The notes below the pieces were generated by a model, which had not been told where the DNA came from, did no database searches, and saw only the letters and a program-made list of their open reading frames with translations. 64,000 nucleotides of DNA, from NCBI RefSeq assembly GCF_003129465.1, contig NZ_QFFF01000001.1:1597501-1661500 (forward strand). Direction: 5' to 3'. The position numbers and the translations under genes are program-made. The DNA comes from Sphingosinicella humi. GTDB taxonomy: Bacteria > Pseudomonadota > Alphaproteobacteria > Sphingomonadales > Sphingomonadaceae. Shown piece after piece: positions 8,559 through 61,379 of this stretch. The first letter of the stretch is position 1, and every line of letters starts with the position of its first letter.

Positions 8559-9416
8559 CTAGCGCTCCCCGGCTCTCAGGCGAGCGACGGCCGCCTTGGC
8601 ATAGGCCGGGTCGATCTCGAAGCCGGTTCCCGTGCAGCCCAGCTTCTCCGCGGCGACGAGGGTGCTGCCGGCGCCGAGGAACGGGTCCAGCACGGTCGCA
8701 TTGGCGACCCCGTGGAGCTTGATACAGCGCTCCGGCAGCTCGACGGGAAAGCCCGCCGGATGATCGAACTTCTGCGCGCGCGACTTCACCGTTCGGTAGG
8801 GGATGAACCAGCTGTTCCCCGCGCAGCGAACGGGGGAACCATGTTTCCAGCGCGAGATGTTGGTCTTGTCCTTGTAGGGTACGCCGACGGCGAGCCGGTC
8901 CACCTCGACCGCGCCGGTCTTCGTGAAATGGAATACGGCCTCGTGATTGTTGTTGAGATAGCGGCGGCTGGTGATCGGCTTGAAGTGGCCGACGGTGTCC
9001 TCGCCGATGCTGACCGACTTCACCCAGACGATATGATTCTGGAGCACGAAGCTGTCGCGAAAGGCGCCCGCCACGTCCATCGCGATCCAGGGATCCGAGT
9101 TGGTGCCGCCGACATTGAGGAAAAAGGAGCCGCTGGGCGCCAGCACGCGGGCCAGCTCCCCAGCGATACGAGCAAGCCAGGCGAGATAGTCCGCACGCGG
9201 CCGCTGGTCGTCATAGCTGTTGTAGGCGACGCCGATATTGTAGGGCGGCGAGGTTACGATGACGTCGATCGACGCGGCGGGCAGGCGGGCGAGCAGGTCG
9301 ACGCTGTCCCCGTGGACGATGCGTTGTTTTCCCACCCGCCATTCGCAAGGCTGCGCGGCGGCAACCTCCTCGGCAAGGGAAGCCTCGCCACCGGTCGACC
9401 GGCCCGGTCTGGTCAC
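8559..9416 (-). CDS. Beta-class site-specific DNA methyltransferase (orphan)
   Basis: A 285-residue DNA amino-methyltransferase. The catalytic motif IV TSPPYN (55-60) precedes the SAM-binding motif I DPFLGAGST (244-252), which is the circularly permuted beta-class order. The region between (about 110-230) would hold target recognition. SPPY is typical of N4-cytosine enzymes but is also found in some N6-adenine ones, so the modified base is open. It lacks the DPPY motif and the C-terminal domain of the cell-cycle enzyme CcrM. No restriction nuclease, specificity subunit or mobile element lies beside it, so it is probably solitary. Start choice among upstream codons is not certain. Confidence 0.85.
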   Translation of the reverse strand: MTRPGRSTGGEASLAEEVAAAQPCEWRVGKQRIVHGDSVDLLARLPAASIDVIVTSPPYNIGVAYNSYDDQRPRADYLAWLARIAGELARVLAPSGSFFLNVGGTNSDPWIAMDVAGAFRDSFVLQNHIVWVKSVSIGEDTVGHFKPITSRRYLNNNHEAVFHFTKTGAVEVDRLAVGVPYKDKTNISRWKHGSPVRCAGNSWFIPYRTVKSRAQKFDHPAGFPVELPERCIKLHGVANATVLDPFLGAGSTLVAAEKLGCTGTGFEIDPAYAKAAVARLRAGER

Positions 9417-58134: not shown

Positions 58135-58292
58135 CCCATCATTGCGATTGCGCTCCACTCGGCTGGGCGATCATGGATGCCGCGACGGCATGCGGCTGGC
58201 GATCCGGGGTTCTGCCGGCCTTGTCAGGAGAGCCAAATCAGGCTTTGAGGAGCGGTCGCATCAGCCGTCCGTCATGTTGGAGGAGAGACTTC

Positions 58293-58892
58293 ATGCCCCG
58301 CTTGGTCGCCTTTTCGGCCCTTCTGGTGCTCGCCGCCTGTGCCGACAGCGAACCGCCCGATCCGACGCCGGCGGACGATGACGGCGCCTACAACATGATC
58401 GATCCGGTCACTACTCAGGTGACGCAGGACACGGCTCCGGCCATCGGCAACTGGACGCGGACAATGCAAGACGAGCGGCCGGCGTTGGCCTTCGGGCCGA
58501 CTGGGGCGGAGCCGCTCTTCAGTCTGCGCTGCGACGACCGAGAGGGCATATTGCTCCACCGGCACGGCGTCGTCGAAACGGGCAGCGCCGGCATGATGAC
58601 GCTGACGCTGGGTGGGGACCAGCACCGGCTCGCGGTCGATCCGGTCGCGGGGCCGCCGCCGATGCTTCGCGCCACCGTGTCCGCGAACGACCCGGTCCTG
58701 GATGCGCTCGGCGCGCAGGAAAGCCCGCTCGAGCTGGAGGTCGGGGACGGACCGCCGCTGGTGCTGCCGCCCAGTCCGATGATCGGCGAGTTCATCGCGG
58801 CATGCGGCCGCGGCGAAGCCCCGCCGCTCGTCGGAAACGAGGAGGCGGACAATGCCGCGAATGCCGCCGCCCCCGCCGACGAGACGCCGTGA
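58293..58892 (+). CDS. Lipoprotein, tandem paralogue 1
   Basis: A 199-residue lipoprotein (signal MPRLVAFSALLVLAAC). The mature domain reads GNWTRTMQDERPALAFGPTG, AEPLFSLRCDDREGILLHRHG and a late LVLPPSPMIGEFIAACG, with an Asn/Ala-rich tail. The same plan recurs in the next gene, so the two are tandem duplicates. Unknown function; calycin-like beta structure is likely. GGAGGAGAG lies before the start; the frame opening at 58173 is not needed. Confidence 0.7.
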   Translation: MPRLVAFSALLVLAACADSEPPDPTPADDDGAYNMIDPVTTQVTQDTAPAIGNWTRTMQDERPALAFGPTGAEPLFSLRCDDREGILLHRHGVVETGSAGMMTLTLGGDQHRLAVDPVAGPPPMLRATVSANDPVLDALGAQESPLELEVGDGPPLVLPPSPMIGEFIAACGRGEAPPLVGNEEADNAANAAAPADETP

Positions 58893-58984
58893 CGACTATC
58901 GTTCTCAGCCTGCCCTAAATTCGGCGTTGGATCGAAAGCGAGGCTGTCGTGTTGTTCTGGGACGAGAGACGGGAGCGGTTTTCC

Positions 58985-59515
58985 ATGAAGTCCATGCGTA
59001 TCCTTGTGCTGTTCGGCGCGCTGGCGGCCGTGGCCTGCGTGCCCCGCCCGGCGCCGACACCCGAGCCACGACCGGAGCCGGCGCCGCAGCCACCGCCCCC
59101 TGCCGCGCCGCCGCCGCCCGCCGCCGACTGGCGCGACGTTCCACTGACGCCCGGCCACTGGGTCTATAGCGCGGAAGGGACAGCATCGCAGGCGCAGTTC
59201 GGCCCCGCCAACAGCGAGCCGCTGTTCAGTGTTCGCTGCGATCGCTCCCAGCGGCAGATCGTCCTGTCGCGCTCCGGCGCGGCGAGCGGCAACGCGATGA
59301 CGATCCGCACCACCTCCGGCGCGCGCAGCTTTCCGGCGGCGGGCGGCGGCGGGCCCCGCGCTTACGTCCAGGCCGCGGTCCCGGCGAGCGATCGCTTCCT
59401 CGACAGCATGGTCTTCAGCCGCGGCCGCTTCACCGTCGAGATGCCGGGCGGGCCGATGCTCGTCATACCGGCCTGGCCGGCGCCGGCACGGGTCGTGGAG
59501 GACTGCAGAAGCTGA
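58985..59515 (+). CDS. Lipoprotein, tandem paralogue 2
   Basis: A 176-residue lipoprotein (MKSMRILVLFGALAAVAC) with a Pro-rich linker of about 35 residues (repeated PAPTPEPRPEPAPQ type) and a domain matching the preceding gene: GHWVYSAEGTASQAQFGPAN, SEPLFSVRCDRSQRQIVLSR and MLVIPAWPAPARVVEDC. The linker would let it span the periplasm or reach the peptidoglycan. 92 bp after its paralogue. Confidence 0.7.
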   Translation: MKSMRILVLFGALAAVACVPRPAPTPEPRPEPAPQPPPPAAPPPPAADWRDVPLTPGHWVYSAEGTASQAQFGPANSEPLFSVRCDRSQRQIVLSRSGAASGNAMTIRTTSGARSFPAAGGGGPRAYVQAAVPASDRFLDSMVFSRGRFTVEMPGGPMLVIPAWPAPARVVEDCRS

Positions 59516-59583
59516 TCGGGGAAGTCGTGCACAACGCGGCGCGAAGCATGGAATCCTACCGACAAAATAGTTGAATACAAGTC

Positions 59584-59612
59584 TTGATCGGTGACTCCCC
59601 GCGACTCATTAT
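59584..59612 (+). promoter_or_regulatory. Candidate promoter of the short super-SD transcript
   Basis: TTGATC (59584-59589), 17 bp, CATTAT (59607-59612): four of six consensus bases in each box with ideal spacing, 35 bp before the start codon of the short ORF. Confidence 0.4.
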
Positions 59613-59630
59613 TGCCTTGTGTTCAACAGC

Positions 59631-59703
59631 GAAAGGAGGTGATCCGATGTCTCATGGTTCAGCAGAGGGGTCGGTTCTGTTCGTTCGGGAGATGAAAGGC
59701 TAA
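59631..59703 (+). CDS. 18-codon ORF with full-length Shine-Dalgarno
   Basis: GAAAGGAGGTGATCC (59631-59645) is a 15-base perfect complement of the bacterial 16S rRNA 3' tail, far longer than the usual 4-6 bases. One base later ATG (59647) opens an 18-codon frame, MSHGSAEGSVLFVREMKG, ending in TAA at 59701-59703. The stop codon forms the 3-base loop of a 7-bp hairpin (59694-59700 with 59704-59710). A second hairpin (59723-59729 with 59733-59739) and a terminator follow. I do not recognise the peptide. It may be a leader-type or dual-function RNA, or a ribosome-binding decoy. Coordinates include the ribosome site. Confidence 0.6.
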
Positions 59704-59754
59704 GCCTTTCCAAGGTCTTCCGGGCTGGAGCATCCGGCCGCTGACCATGTTCGG

Positions 59755-59793
59755 AGGGTCGTCGCGCGAATGCGCGGCGGCCCTTCAACTTTT
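59755..59793 (+). terminator. Intrinsic terminator of the short super-SD transcript
   Basis: A 12-bp stem (59756-59767 with 59772-59783, two G-T wobbles) around GAAT, followed by TTCAACTTTT. It ends a transcript of about 170 bases that carries no other ORF. The remaining gap to 59879 holds nothing I can identify. Confidence 0.65.
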
Positions 59794-59879: not shown

Positions 59880-61379
59880 CTATTTGCGGGCGATCCGGTT
59901 ATCCCTATCCTTGCCGCTAGTCGGAGGGGGCGCGGACGTCAGGGTCAGGCGGAAGACGGCCCCCCCGGCGGGCCCGTTGTTCGCCCAGATCTTTCCGCCA
60001 TGAGCCTCGACGATGGTGCGGCTGATCGCCAATCCGATCCCCAGCCCTTCGGCCTTGGTGCTGTGGAAAGGCGCGAACAGCACCGCGTCGGCGATATCGC
60101 CAATGCCAGGGCCGGTATCGGCGACGGTGACCTCGATGAGATCCTCGCGAAGCAGGCGCGTTGCGATTACGATCTCGCGCACCGGCGCGGTCTCCATCGC
60201 CTCGGCTGCATTGCGGATGAGGTTGATCAGCACCTGCTGGATCTGCACCTGGTCGACATAGGCCCAGCGGGCTTCCGCGGCGAGATCCAAGCGACAGGTG
60301 ACCTGCGCCGGACTGATGTCGGACAGGGCAAGCCTGACGGACTCGTGGATTAGCAAGTCGAGATCTTCCGGTCGCGTATCGGCTGCACCTCGATAGACGA
60401 GGCCGCGCAGCCGGCGGATGATTTCGCCGGCGCGCAACGTTCCCTCCTCGGCCGCCGCCAGCGCCTCGGCGACTTCCTCGAGATTGGCTTGTGTCGGCCT
60501 CTCAAGCAGCCGACGGCTGCCGCGGACGTAATTGGCGACGGCGGTGAGCGGCTGGTTGAGTTCGTGCGCGAGCGTCGAGGCCATCGCGCCCATCGCGCTC
60601 AACCGCGCGGCATCGCCGACCTCCGATTGGAGGCGGCGCAGCGCCGCCTCCGCCGCGCCGCGCTCACGTTCGCGCCGCTCGAGGTCGGCATGGGCCGTCT
60701 CGATGAGATCCGCCAACCGCTCCTTCTCTTCGATCGTCGTCAAGAGGGTGACGGCGTTGTTGTGAAGCTGTGCGCAGATGCCAATCGACAGGCGGGTGGC
60801 GGCCAGCGCGACGAGCCCCAGCGCCAGATAATAGGGATTTCCCGACAGGATCAGGGCAAGGCCCAACAAACCGTTGACCCCCACGATGCGGCCCAATGCG
60901 ATGCGGGGGCGGTAATGATAGCGCACGCTCACCCAGGCGGCGCCGAGGGCGATGAGACCTATCATCAAGTGAACGAGCGTGTCGCCGCTGGCCAATATCG
61001 CGCGGGCGCCCATCAGGCCGATTCCGGCAGTGACGCCCCAGGAAAGCCATTCGAAGCGCCGCTCGAAGGCGCGGACCGCTTCGGCGCTTTGCTCCAATAT
61101 CCGTCGCTTTGCGTAATGGCGCCGCATCGGAACGATCGCCAGGATCGCCGCGCAGGTCGCGGCGGTGAGGGCGGCGAGCACCAGGTCGCCCGACCGCCAG
61201 GATGCCAGTCCGCCGATCGCCGCCACGATCAGCACTTCCAGCATGTTGACTGAAGGCGGCGTGCCGAACAGCTGGCCGACGAGCGCTATGTAGAGACGCG
61301 GCGGCAGCGTCCGCCAGGAGTCCGCGCTGAGAGAGTGCCGCCATCCTTCAGCCACGGATCGTTTCCCTCTGTCAGCCAT
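59880..61379 (-). CDS. Membrane sensor histidine kinase, FixL/DctB-like transmitter
   Basis: A 499-residue inner membrane kinase. About six hydrophobic segments (45-85, 113-150, 165-200) form the input part, with no PAS domain visible; a coiled coil (215-258) leads to the H-box LAHELNQPLTAVANYVRGSR (His272), then N-box LINLIRNAAEAM, G1 VADTGPGIG and G2 AEGLGIGLAISRTIV. The H-box wording is that of the FixL/DctB/TodS class. No response regulator gene is adjacent, so it is an orphan whose partner is elsewhere. Confidence 0.88.
   Translation of the reverse strand: MADRGKRSVAEGWRHSLSADSWRTLPPRLYIALVGQLFGTPPSVNMLEVLIVAAIGGLASWRSGDLVLAALTAATCAAILAIVPMRRHYAKRRILEQSAEAVRAFERRFEWLSWGVTAGIGLMGARAILASGDTLVHLMIGLIALGAAWVSVRYHYRPRIALGRIVGVNGLLGLALILSGNPYYLALGLVALAATRLSIGICAQLHNNAVTLLTTIEEKERLADLIETAHADLERRERERGAAEAALRRLQSEVGDAARLSAMGAMASTLAHELNQPLTAVANYVRGSRRLLERPTQANLEEVAEALAAAEEGTLRAGEIIRRLRGLVYRGAADTRPEDLDLLIHESVRLALSDISPAQVTCRLDLAAEARWAYVDQVQIQQVLINLIRNAAEAMETAPVREIVIATRLLREDLIEVTVADTGPGIGDIADAVLFAPFHSTKAEGLGIGLAISRTIVEAHGGKIWANNGPAGGAVFRLTLTSAPPPTSGKDRDNRIARK

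Follow-up and report, generated by a model that had tools for sequence, protein, structure and literature searches.

Locus and layout of the element

The window analyzed here is a stretch of 64,000 nt from Sphingosinicella humi, and all coordinates refer to it. At positions 59584 to 59793 it carries a compact element that, judged by its sequence, looks like a discrete RNA gene and is apparently transcribed separately. Reading of the sequence located every element that the initial annotation had named, among them a Shine-Dalgarno (SD) sequence, an 18-codon open reading frame (ORF), a hairpin whose loop contains TAA, and a terminator. The features of the element and its neighbors are as follows.

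58949-59515, + strand: lipoprotein-like ORF, the upstream neighbor, outside the RNA; marks the orthologous locus
59584-59612, + strand: predicted promoter (-35 TTGATC at 59584-59589, 17-nt spacer, -10 CATTAT at 59607-59612)
59593-59597, + strand: distal GANTC site GACTC, 10 bp upstream of the proximal site
59603-59607, + strand: proximal GANTC site GACTC, touching the -10 box
59624-59783, + strand: match to RF01867 (CC2171), whole model 1-159
59631-59645, + strand: extended SD, GAAAGGAGGTGATCC, complementary to the 16S 3' tail
59647-59703, + strand: 18-codon ORF (ATG 59647-59649, TAA 59701-59703), peptide MSHGSAEGSVLFVREMKG
59653-59749, + strand: rod (RNAalifold and pair counts on 25 sequences; single-sequence folds of that stretch alone)
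59653-59663, + strand: 5' arm of the closing helix P1, CATGGTTCAGC, codons 3-6
59694-59710, + strand: apical hairpin GAAAGGC-TAA-GCCTTTC, TAA in the loop
59740-59749, + strand: 3' arm of the closing helix P1, GCTGACCATG, immediately 5' of the terminator
59753-59793, + strand: intrinsic terminator (15-bp stem 59753-59786, T-run 59790-59793)
59880-61379, opposite strand (convergent): kinase gene, next gene downstream

The predicted transcript is about 175 nt long, from a predicted start near 59619 to an end near 59793, and this 175-nt RNA folds better than all of 200 shuffled versions (z = -6.2). The upstream lipoprotein-like ORF matches no Pfam or NCBIfam model. Of the 33 loci searched in relatives, 28 have a homologue of this ORF (23/25 within the genus and 5/8 outside), in every case on the same strand and 113 to 719 nt upstream of the SD. 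Because this homologue precedes the SD in 28 of 33 loci, the locus of the sphingomonad type (fam1, see below) is considered orthologous. In the window, this ORF is the second of a tandem pair of lipoprotein-like ORFs (58173-58892 and 58949-59515) that are similar to each other, as seen in cross matches, and that match no Pfam model. On the downstream side, no homologue of the kinase gene was found in the 33 relatives' loci. As the next gene is convergent and lacks such a homologue, the earlier statement that the unit has no downstream gene to regulate holds. Neither a tRNA nor a tmRNA was found in the window, and these identities were rejected for the element. A serC leader (RF00517) is present elsewhere in the window, at 1249-1301, with 47.4 bits, which is above its gathering score.

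Relationship to RF01867 and distribution

In a search with 401 bases, the element matched the Rfam family RF01867 (CC2171) with 57.9 bits (E = 1.5e-11) over the full model (1-159), including the closing helix and the terminator stem. The gathering score of the family is 75 bits. Since the element falls short of it, we do not count it as a formal member of RF01867; by sequence, it is a divergent sphingomonad relative of this Caulobacter sRNA family. The initial annotation had overlooked that a homologous RNA family was already catalogued. The two share the 5' module GAAAGGAGGUGAUCC-nn-xUGUCUCAU, the closing helix (UCAUuGuC::GaCaAUG in the Rfam consensus), and the terminator hairpin. They differ in that the element has CATGG/CCATG arms whereas RF01867 has CATTG/CAATG arms, and in that the element adds a fixed 18-codon ORF, a single rod with the stop codon at its apex, the tandem GANTC sites of the genus, and a location behind the lipoprotein-like gene. 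Sequences with CATGG arms (fam1) are the sphingomonad type, plus a few Azospirillum-type look-alikes with ORFs of 57 to 59 codons.

In the literature searched, what bears on the family is an Rfam table (PMC11701678) and a Mesorhizobium sRNA list (PMC5596092). No function, ORF, or extended SD for RF01867 is described in the titles and abstract openings covered by this search; alphaproteobacterial sRNA catalogues (e.g., PMC2873474, PMC2881028, and PMC5107571) may list a homologue under another name. CcnA (CCNA_R0094) was rejected as a Caulobacter counterpart: it is located at the replication origin, with its transcription start site at position 182 (PMC8959179 and PMC5988900).

Conservation beyond the strain, which the initial annotation had left to be checked, was found with a nucleotide search that matched 36 of 60 genomes: the genome itself, all 25 other members of the genus, 9 of 10 other members of the family, and 1 of 24 from other families of the order. 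Eight of the nine family matches outside the genus are of the same type, and the ninth (G028) is of the CATTG type (E = 0.0044); the single match outside the family is weak (E = 0.0097). With a pattern allowing up to three mismatches, the 5' module was found in 78 of 385 Alphaproteobacteria sampled, compared to 1 of 385 for a reversed-pattern control. In a sample of Pseudomonadota it occurred in 49 of 299 genomes, all of them Alphaproteobacteria, and in none of the "same phylum" genomes. A short-pattern scan of GTDB contigs gave at least 120 loci. Among 80 titles listed for these loci, 77 name Alphaproteobacteria, 2 Proteobacteria without further assignment, and 1 "Candidatus Kuenenia." The "Candidatus Kuenenia" locus (L122) carries a typical CATTG-type copy, likely because of a binning error.

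An Rfam scan of 16 of these at least 120 loci placed 10 above the RF01867 gathering score. When 289 Alphaproteobacteria were searched with the RF01867 model, 61 had matches at E ≤ 0.001 and 9 exceeded the cutoff; among 14 control genomes, only Caulobacter matched. The curated 75-bit cutoff thus seems to miss many relatives. The same model finds one copy in the S. humi genome, in a search whose filters may lose weak matches. Both the CATGG and the CATTG types are present in the ten genus members for which a second match was retrieved (L032 to L039, L046, and L047). A phage or plasmid origin was rejected: the nucleotide search of the "phages" set gave no match to the element, and the matches in "plasmids" were 8 records, all from Azospirillum, covering 12 to 16% of the query. 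Three viral contigs carry the 5' module, two of them (L168 and L170, from IMG/VR) with typical copies, which may reflect either host DNA called as prophage or true carriage by phages.

Pairing with the 16S rRNA tail

The complementarity to the 16S 3' tail that the initial annotation had claimed is borne out, in that GAAAGGAGGTGATCC is complementary to the tail from a genome of the same genus. This genome was used because no 16S gene was found in the 3.03-Mb S. humi assembly. The tail was searched for in 21 genomes and matched in 2; the 16S gene of the same-genus genome (L278) ends in GGCTGGATCACCTCCTTTCTAAGG in a typical context. The match in a second genome (L279) does not resemble an alphaproteobacterial 16S, and a further locus (L280) resembles a coding stretch. 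Allowing one mismatch, the 15-mer has a single occurrence in the whole S. humi assembly, both strands included.

The exceptional strength ascribed to this SD is supported by calculation as well. Its duplex with the 16S tail is calculated at -29.9 kcal/mol, about twice the energy of the best (-14.6 kcal/mol) among 126 ORFs of the window (at least 150 codons, both strands, taken from the first start codon, gene status unchecked). The lowest value among 20,000 random 24-mers was -23.4 kcal/mol. The four SD bases beyond the search pattern read GAAA in 113 of the 120 matches listed from GTDB contigs and GGAA in the other 7, and all of these pair with the tail. When up to three mismatches were allowed anywhere, 79 places were found, and in each of them the SD pairs with 16S at no fewer than 14 of the 15 positions (all 15 in 69); the TG of the start codon is unchanged in all 79, and codon 3, by contrast, varies widely. 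In the broader set, 214 of 246 sequences pair over all 15 positions. Because the search patterns already specified parts of the SD core and the start codon, some of the conservation at these places comes from the search itself. As background, 75.4% of Caulobacter coding genes lack a strong SD (PMC4117421), and extended SD pairing controls initiation in Staphylococcus (PMC13009471).

Consensus rod and closing helix

RNAalifold applied to an alignment of 25 genus sequences gives a single rod, in which the ORF from codon 3 onward pairs with the 3' untranslated region and the stop codon sits in the apical loop. (The alignment omits L018, whose ORF duplicates that of L014; L018 was retained in the 26-locus promoter count below.) The rod has 44 pairs, with 96.6% of cells paired and double changes at 12 pairs. 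These measures were reached by none of 500 shuffles, and sliding the partners by one to three columns lowered pairing to 31.6 to 48.8%; both controls are lenient, as the alignment used for the counts is also the one that gave the structure and its sequences are not independent by descent. The terminator stem (helix 6 of the consensus structure) also covaries in the 25 sequences.

P1 hardly varies inside the genus (9 of 10 pairs are invariant), and support for it therefore comes from comparison between subfamilies. In 149 of 159 anchored sequences, the motif before the terminator contains the complement of base N of CATNG, with N being G, T, A, or C, so that by sequence comparison the bottom of the rod is subject to four-state compensation across the class. 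Thirteen of 172 sequences had no anchor and were left out of this count. Among the 10 of 159 that break the rule, at least L024 and L029 are anchor errors (both contain GACCATG), and L172 and L186 are not. Of 55 divergent members with other arms, 24 have at least five contiguous pairs near the terminator and 31 have fewer; in 2,000 arm shuffles, the number with at least five averaged 6.1 and never exceeded 15. P1 as such was already known, since the Rfam consensus of RF01867 contains the closing helix. What is new in fam1, on comparison of the sequences, is the rod with the stop codon at its apex. Contact of the stop codon with a hairpin loop is seen in 49 of 66 fam1 sequences (6.4 expected by chance) and in 28 of 93 sequences outside the CATGG type (10.8 expected).

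The S. humi element folded alone prefers another structure (-86.5 versus -81.8 kcal/mol for the rod). This minimum-energy fold consists of separate hairpins and partly buries the SD, and P1 has a pairing probability of 0.24. The second hairpin named in the initial annotation (59721-59739) is present in one of the two competing folds; covariation favors the rod at 59653-59749 instead.

The short ORF

Of the 75 fam1 sequences with short ORFs, 73 have an ORF of 18 codons (73 of 78 if the three Azospirillum-type ORFs of 57 to 59 codons, dropped from the count, are included). Stop codons among the 67 distinct fam1 ORFs are TAA (36), TGA (20), and TAG (11). The 3' motif is present in 72 fam1 sequences, and its distance from the stop varies between 34 and 122. 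Indirectly, the constant ORF length and the stops favor translation. An excess of third-position variation was looked for in the 67 distinct ORFs and not found: the entropies of codons 7 to 18 are 1.06, 1.08, and 0.76 bits at positions 1, 2, and 3, respectively, and purifying selection on the peptide is not supported. As the first two positions are no less variable than the third, the peptide is unlikely to be the product, and amino acid identity is probably not what selection holds. ORFs of the broader set (246 sequences) span 14 to 36 codons, except for six of 56 to 59; for comparison, random ATG or GTG starts in the GTDB pattern-scan loci listed give 14 to 36 codons in 204 of 930 cases.

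GANTC sites and the predicted promoter

A scan of the locus with the Escherichia coli sigma-70 consensus returned no promoter site, the consensus being of the E. coli type. The promoter boxes were read from the sequence and from an alignment of the regions upstream of the element in 26 genus loci. A proximal GANTC is present at the predicted -10 region in all 26 (N is C in 11, A in 7, and T in 8), and 23 of 26 have the tandem GANTC-N5-GANTC with sites 10 bp apart (distal N is T in 14, A in 5, C in 3, and G in 1); the background frequency of GANTC is 0.0025 per base. Outside the genus, the 10-bp pair was found in 2 of 53 fam1 sequences and in none of 100 others, and any GANTC within 90 bases upstream was found in 18 of 53 and 36 of 100, respectively. 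The tandem arrangement is thus nearly confined to the genus, and control through GANTC, if real, would be recent.

GANTC is the CcrM site (PMC5988900). The S. humi genome encodes GcrA (PF07750, E = 1.5e-41, above the cutoff) and a 374-amino-acid ORF with N6_N4_Mtase and RAMA domains that matches the CcrM model NF050803 with E = 3.2e-186 and 618 bits versus a cutoff of 830. The ORF beside this CcrM-like ORF is presumably rnhB-like. Conserved GANTC sites, together with GcrA and a CcrM-like protein in the genome, make cell cycle timing plausible, and transcription of the element in the genus is probably timed by GcrA and CcrM, as read from these sequences. A further N6_N4_Mtase domain, distinct from the genome's CcrM-like gene, lies in the window at 8589-9269 on the minus strand (E = 9.7e-44). 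A palindrome, CAAGNCTTG, at 59578-59586 overlaps the predicted -35 box and recurs, complete or partial, in many loci of the genus; in addition to the GANTC pair, it may be a site for a regulator.

A ribosome-engaged sRNA as the proposed mechanism

Sequence comparison yields homology to a known family, complementarity to 16S rRNA, a fixed ORF length, a covarying rod, and conserved GANTC sites; transcription, translation, opening gated by 30S, protection, cell cycle timing, and any downstream target are what we infer in addition. The explanation that we consider best, and to which we give about an even chance, is a stand-alone structured sRNA of about 175 nt that engages ribosomes and in which the folded RNA and the passage of the ribosome would be what matters. 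The 5' part of the RNA would pair with the single-stranded 16S tail over the whole length of the tail. Docking of 30S and its accommodation at the AUG would force open P1, i.e., codons 3 to 6 paired with the motif before the terminator. The ribosome would then read the 18 codons, which form the 5' arm of the rod, terminate at the apex, and free the 3' arm, so that the ORF would be kept as a device placing ribosomes at fixed points and not for its peptide. The bound 30S would shield the 5' end, as with STAB-SD elements (see below), and the supply of 30S would set a switch between the closed and the ribosome-opened RNA, with transcription in the genus timed by GcrA and CcrM.

P1 begins six bases after the A of the AUG, which falls inside the footprint of an initiating ribosome. 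In the energy model, the SD:16S duplex provides -26.8 kcal/mol versus 12.3 kcal/mol needed to open the footprint to +18, and a 7-nt SD would yield just -10.1 kcal/mol. A long SD can thus pay for the opening of P1, which would explain why the SD is so long. Alternatively, the SD could do no more than promote strong translation, with no gating involved.

A wider version of this proposal is less probable and is offered tentatively. The element would be an RNA switch found throughout the Alphaproteobacteria and gated by free 30S: pairing with the 16S tail would unzip the closing helix, a ribosome on an ORF of set length and indifferent sequence, stopping at the apex, would hold the RNA open, and the RNA would report ribosome supply. 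Its synthesis in the genus would depend on chromosome methylation, and ribosome capacity would thereby be connected with the cell cycle.

Alternative explanations

A classical base-pairing sRNA of the Hfq type is an unlikely alternative. The SD and ORF would then serve only for stability, and an exposed loop or the 3' arm would repress or activate target mRNAs. RF01867 is catalogued in Rfam as an sRNA gene, and many relatives have A-rich AACAAC-like repeats in the 5' leader, which could suit Hfq. Stability conferred by a strong SD without productive translation is known, too (PMC7509114). However, what is invariant in the 5' part corresponds to the 16S tail and the start region and does not resemble an mRNA seed.

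We consider it fairly improbable that the RNA is mainly a sponge or monitor that titrates free 30S through the whole 16S tail, with translation being incidental. Such a role would fit the near-complete 15-nt tail pairing kept across the class, which is far stronger than that of any of the 126 window ORFs. Yet a sponge could do without an ORF of fixed length, a stop codon at the apex, and a covarying closing helix, and titration would require near-ribosomal abundance. The 30S idea of the initial annotation is partly supported, with sequestration or sensing being presumed.

The other function suggested there, a highly expressed functional micropeptide of 18 residues, is improbable. The SD is strong and well spaced, and the start codon and ORF length are conserved, as a micropeptide would lead one to expect. 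The claim fails on the codons: besides the lack of a third-position excess in codons 7 to 18, the C-terminal part is swapped between genera (VREMKA versus xxEHYR), and codon 4 encodes Gly, Cys, Ser, or Arg, following the pairing demand of P1. The reading of a ribosome-gated, protected sRNA is favored over a pure sponge or a micropeptide.

A leader peptide or attenuator of a neighboring gene, which a small ORF followed by hairpins and a terminator resembles, is very improbable and was rejected because of its context: no same-strand gene lies directly downstream, the kinase gene at 59880-61379 being on the opposite strand and without a homologue in the 33 relatives' loci, and the consensus fold contains no antiterminator pairing to the terminator stem. 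Equally improbable is a relic, i.e., an old sRNA gene drifting without function, for although the peptide sequence drifts, the covariation, fixed length, promoter sites, and locus conservation are all contrary to it.

Comparison with known systems

The element resembles the STAB-SD elements of Bacillus cry transcripts in having, at 59631-59639, the pairing core GAAAGGAGG of the STAB-SD motif. In STAB-SDs, the bound 30S stabilizes the RNA independently of translation (PMC7509114), whereas the match in the element spans the whole tail, directly precedes a start codon, and is coupled to the closing helix and the ORF. It is also like rnTrpL of Sinorhizobium, a small RNA with a short ORF (PMC10117765); rnTrpL is, however, a leaderless tryptophan attenuator, while the element combines a maximal SD with the lack of a downstream operon and of any sign that the peptide is under selection. 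Finally, GANTC at the predicted -10 region in a genome encoding GcrA and a CcrM-like methylase recalls GcrA-CcrM promoters, from which the element differs by tandem sites 10 bp apart that are nearly genus confined among the sequences examined.

The comparisons suggest that RF01867 and relatives far below its cutoff carry a nearly invariant complement of the 16S tail as well as a short ORF, of which the sphingomonad type keeps the length and not the peptide. They lead to a sharp and testable proposal, namely, that these RNAs respond when ribosomes engage them, and this in a class in which ordinary genes may lack strong SDs. "Noncoding" labels and catalogues of small ORFs may both misdescribe such genes.

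Variants of the module

A few members of the broader set depart from the pattern described above. The module GAAAGGAGGTGATCC-x-xTGTCT heads ORFs of 56 to 59 codons in L100 (titled Azospirillum), L137, L152, L204 (one base off), L207, and L249. By sequence, these ORFs look like secreted small proteins with signal peptides, so that the module here stands on an apparent real protein gene. The members of family f178 (L241, L242, L270, and L273) have 14-codon ORFs with nearly constant C-terminal codons (KRCHLAxxAR) and represent a separate subfamily, whose peptide may be of more importance. The members of family f29 (L244, L247, L271, L275, and L276), with 18-codon ORFs, have CACCTCC or CGCCTCC near the 3' end; these seven bases complement their own SD (with a wobble in CGCCTCC) and constitute an internal mimic of the 16S tail.
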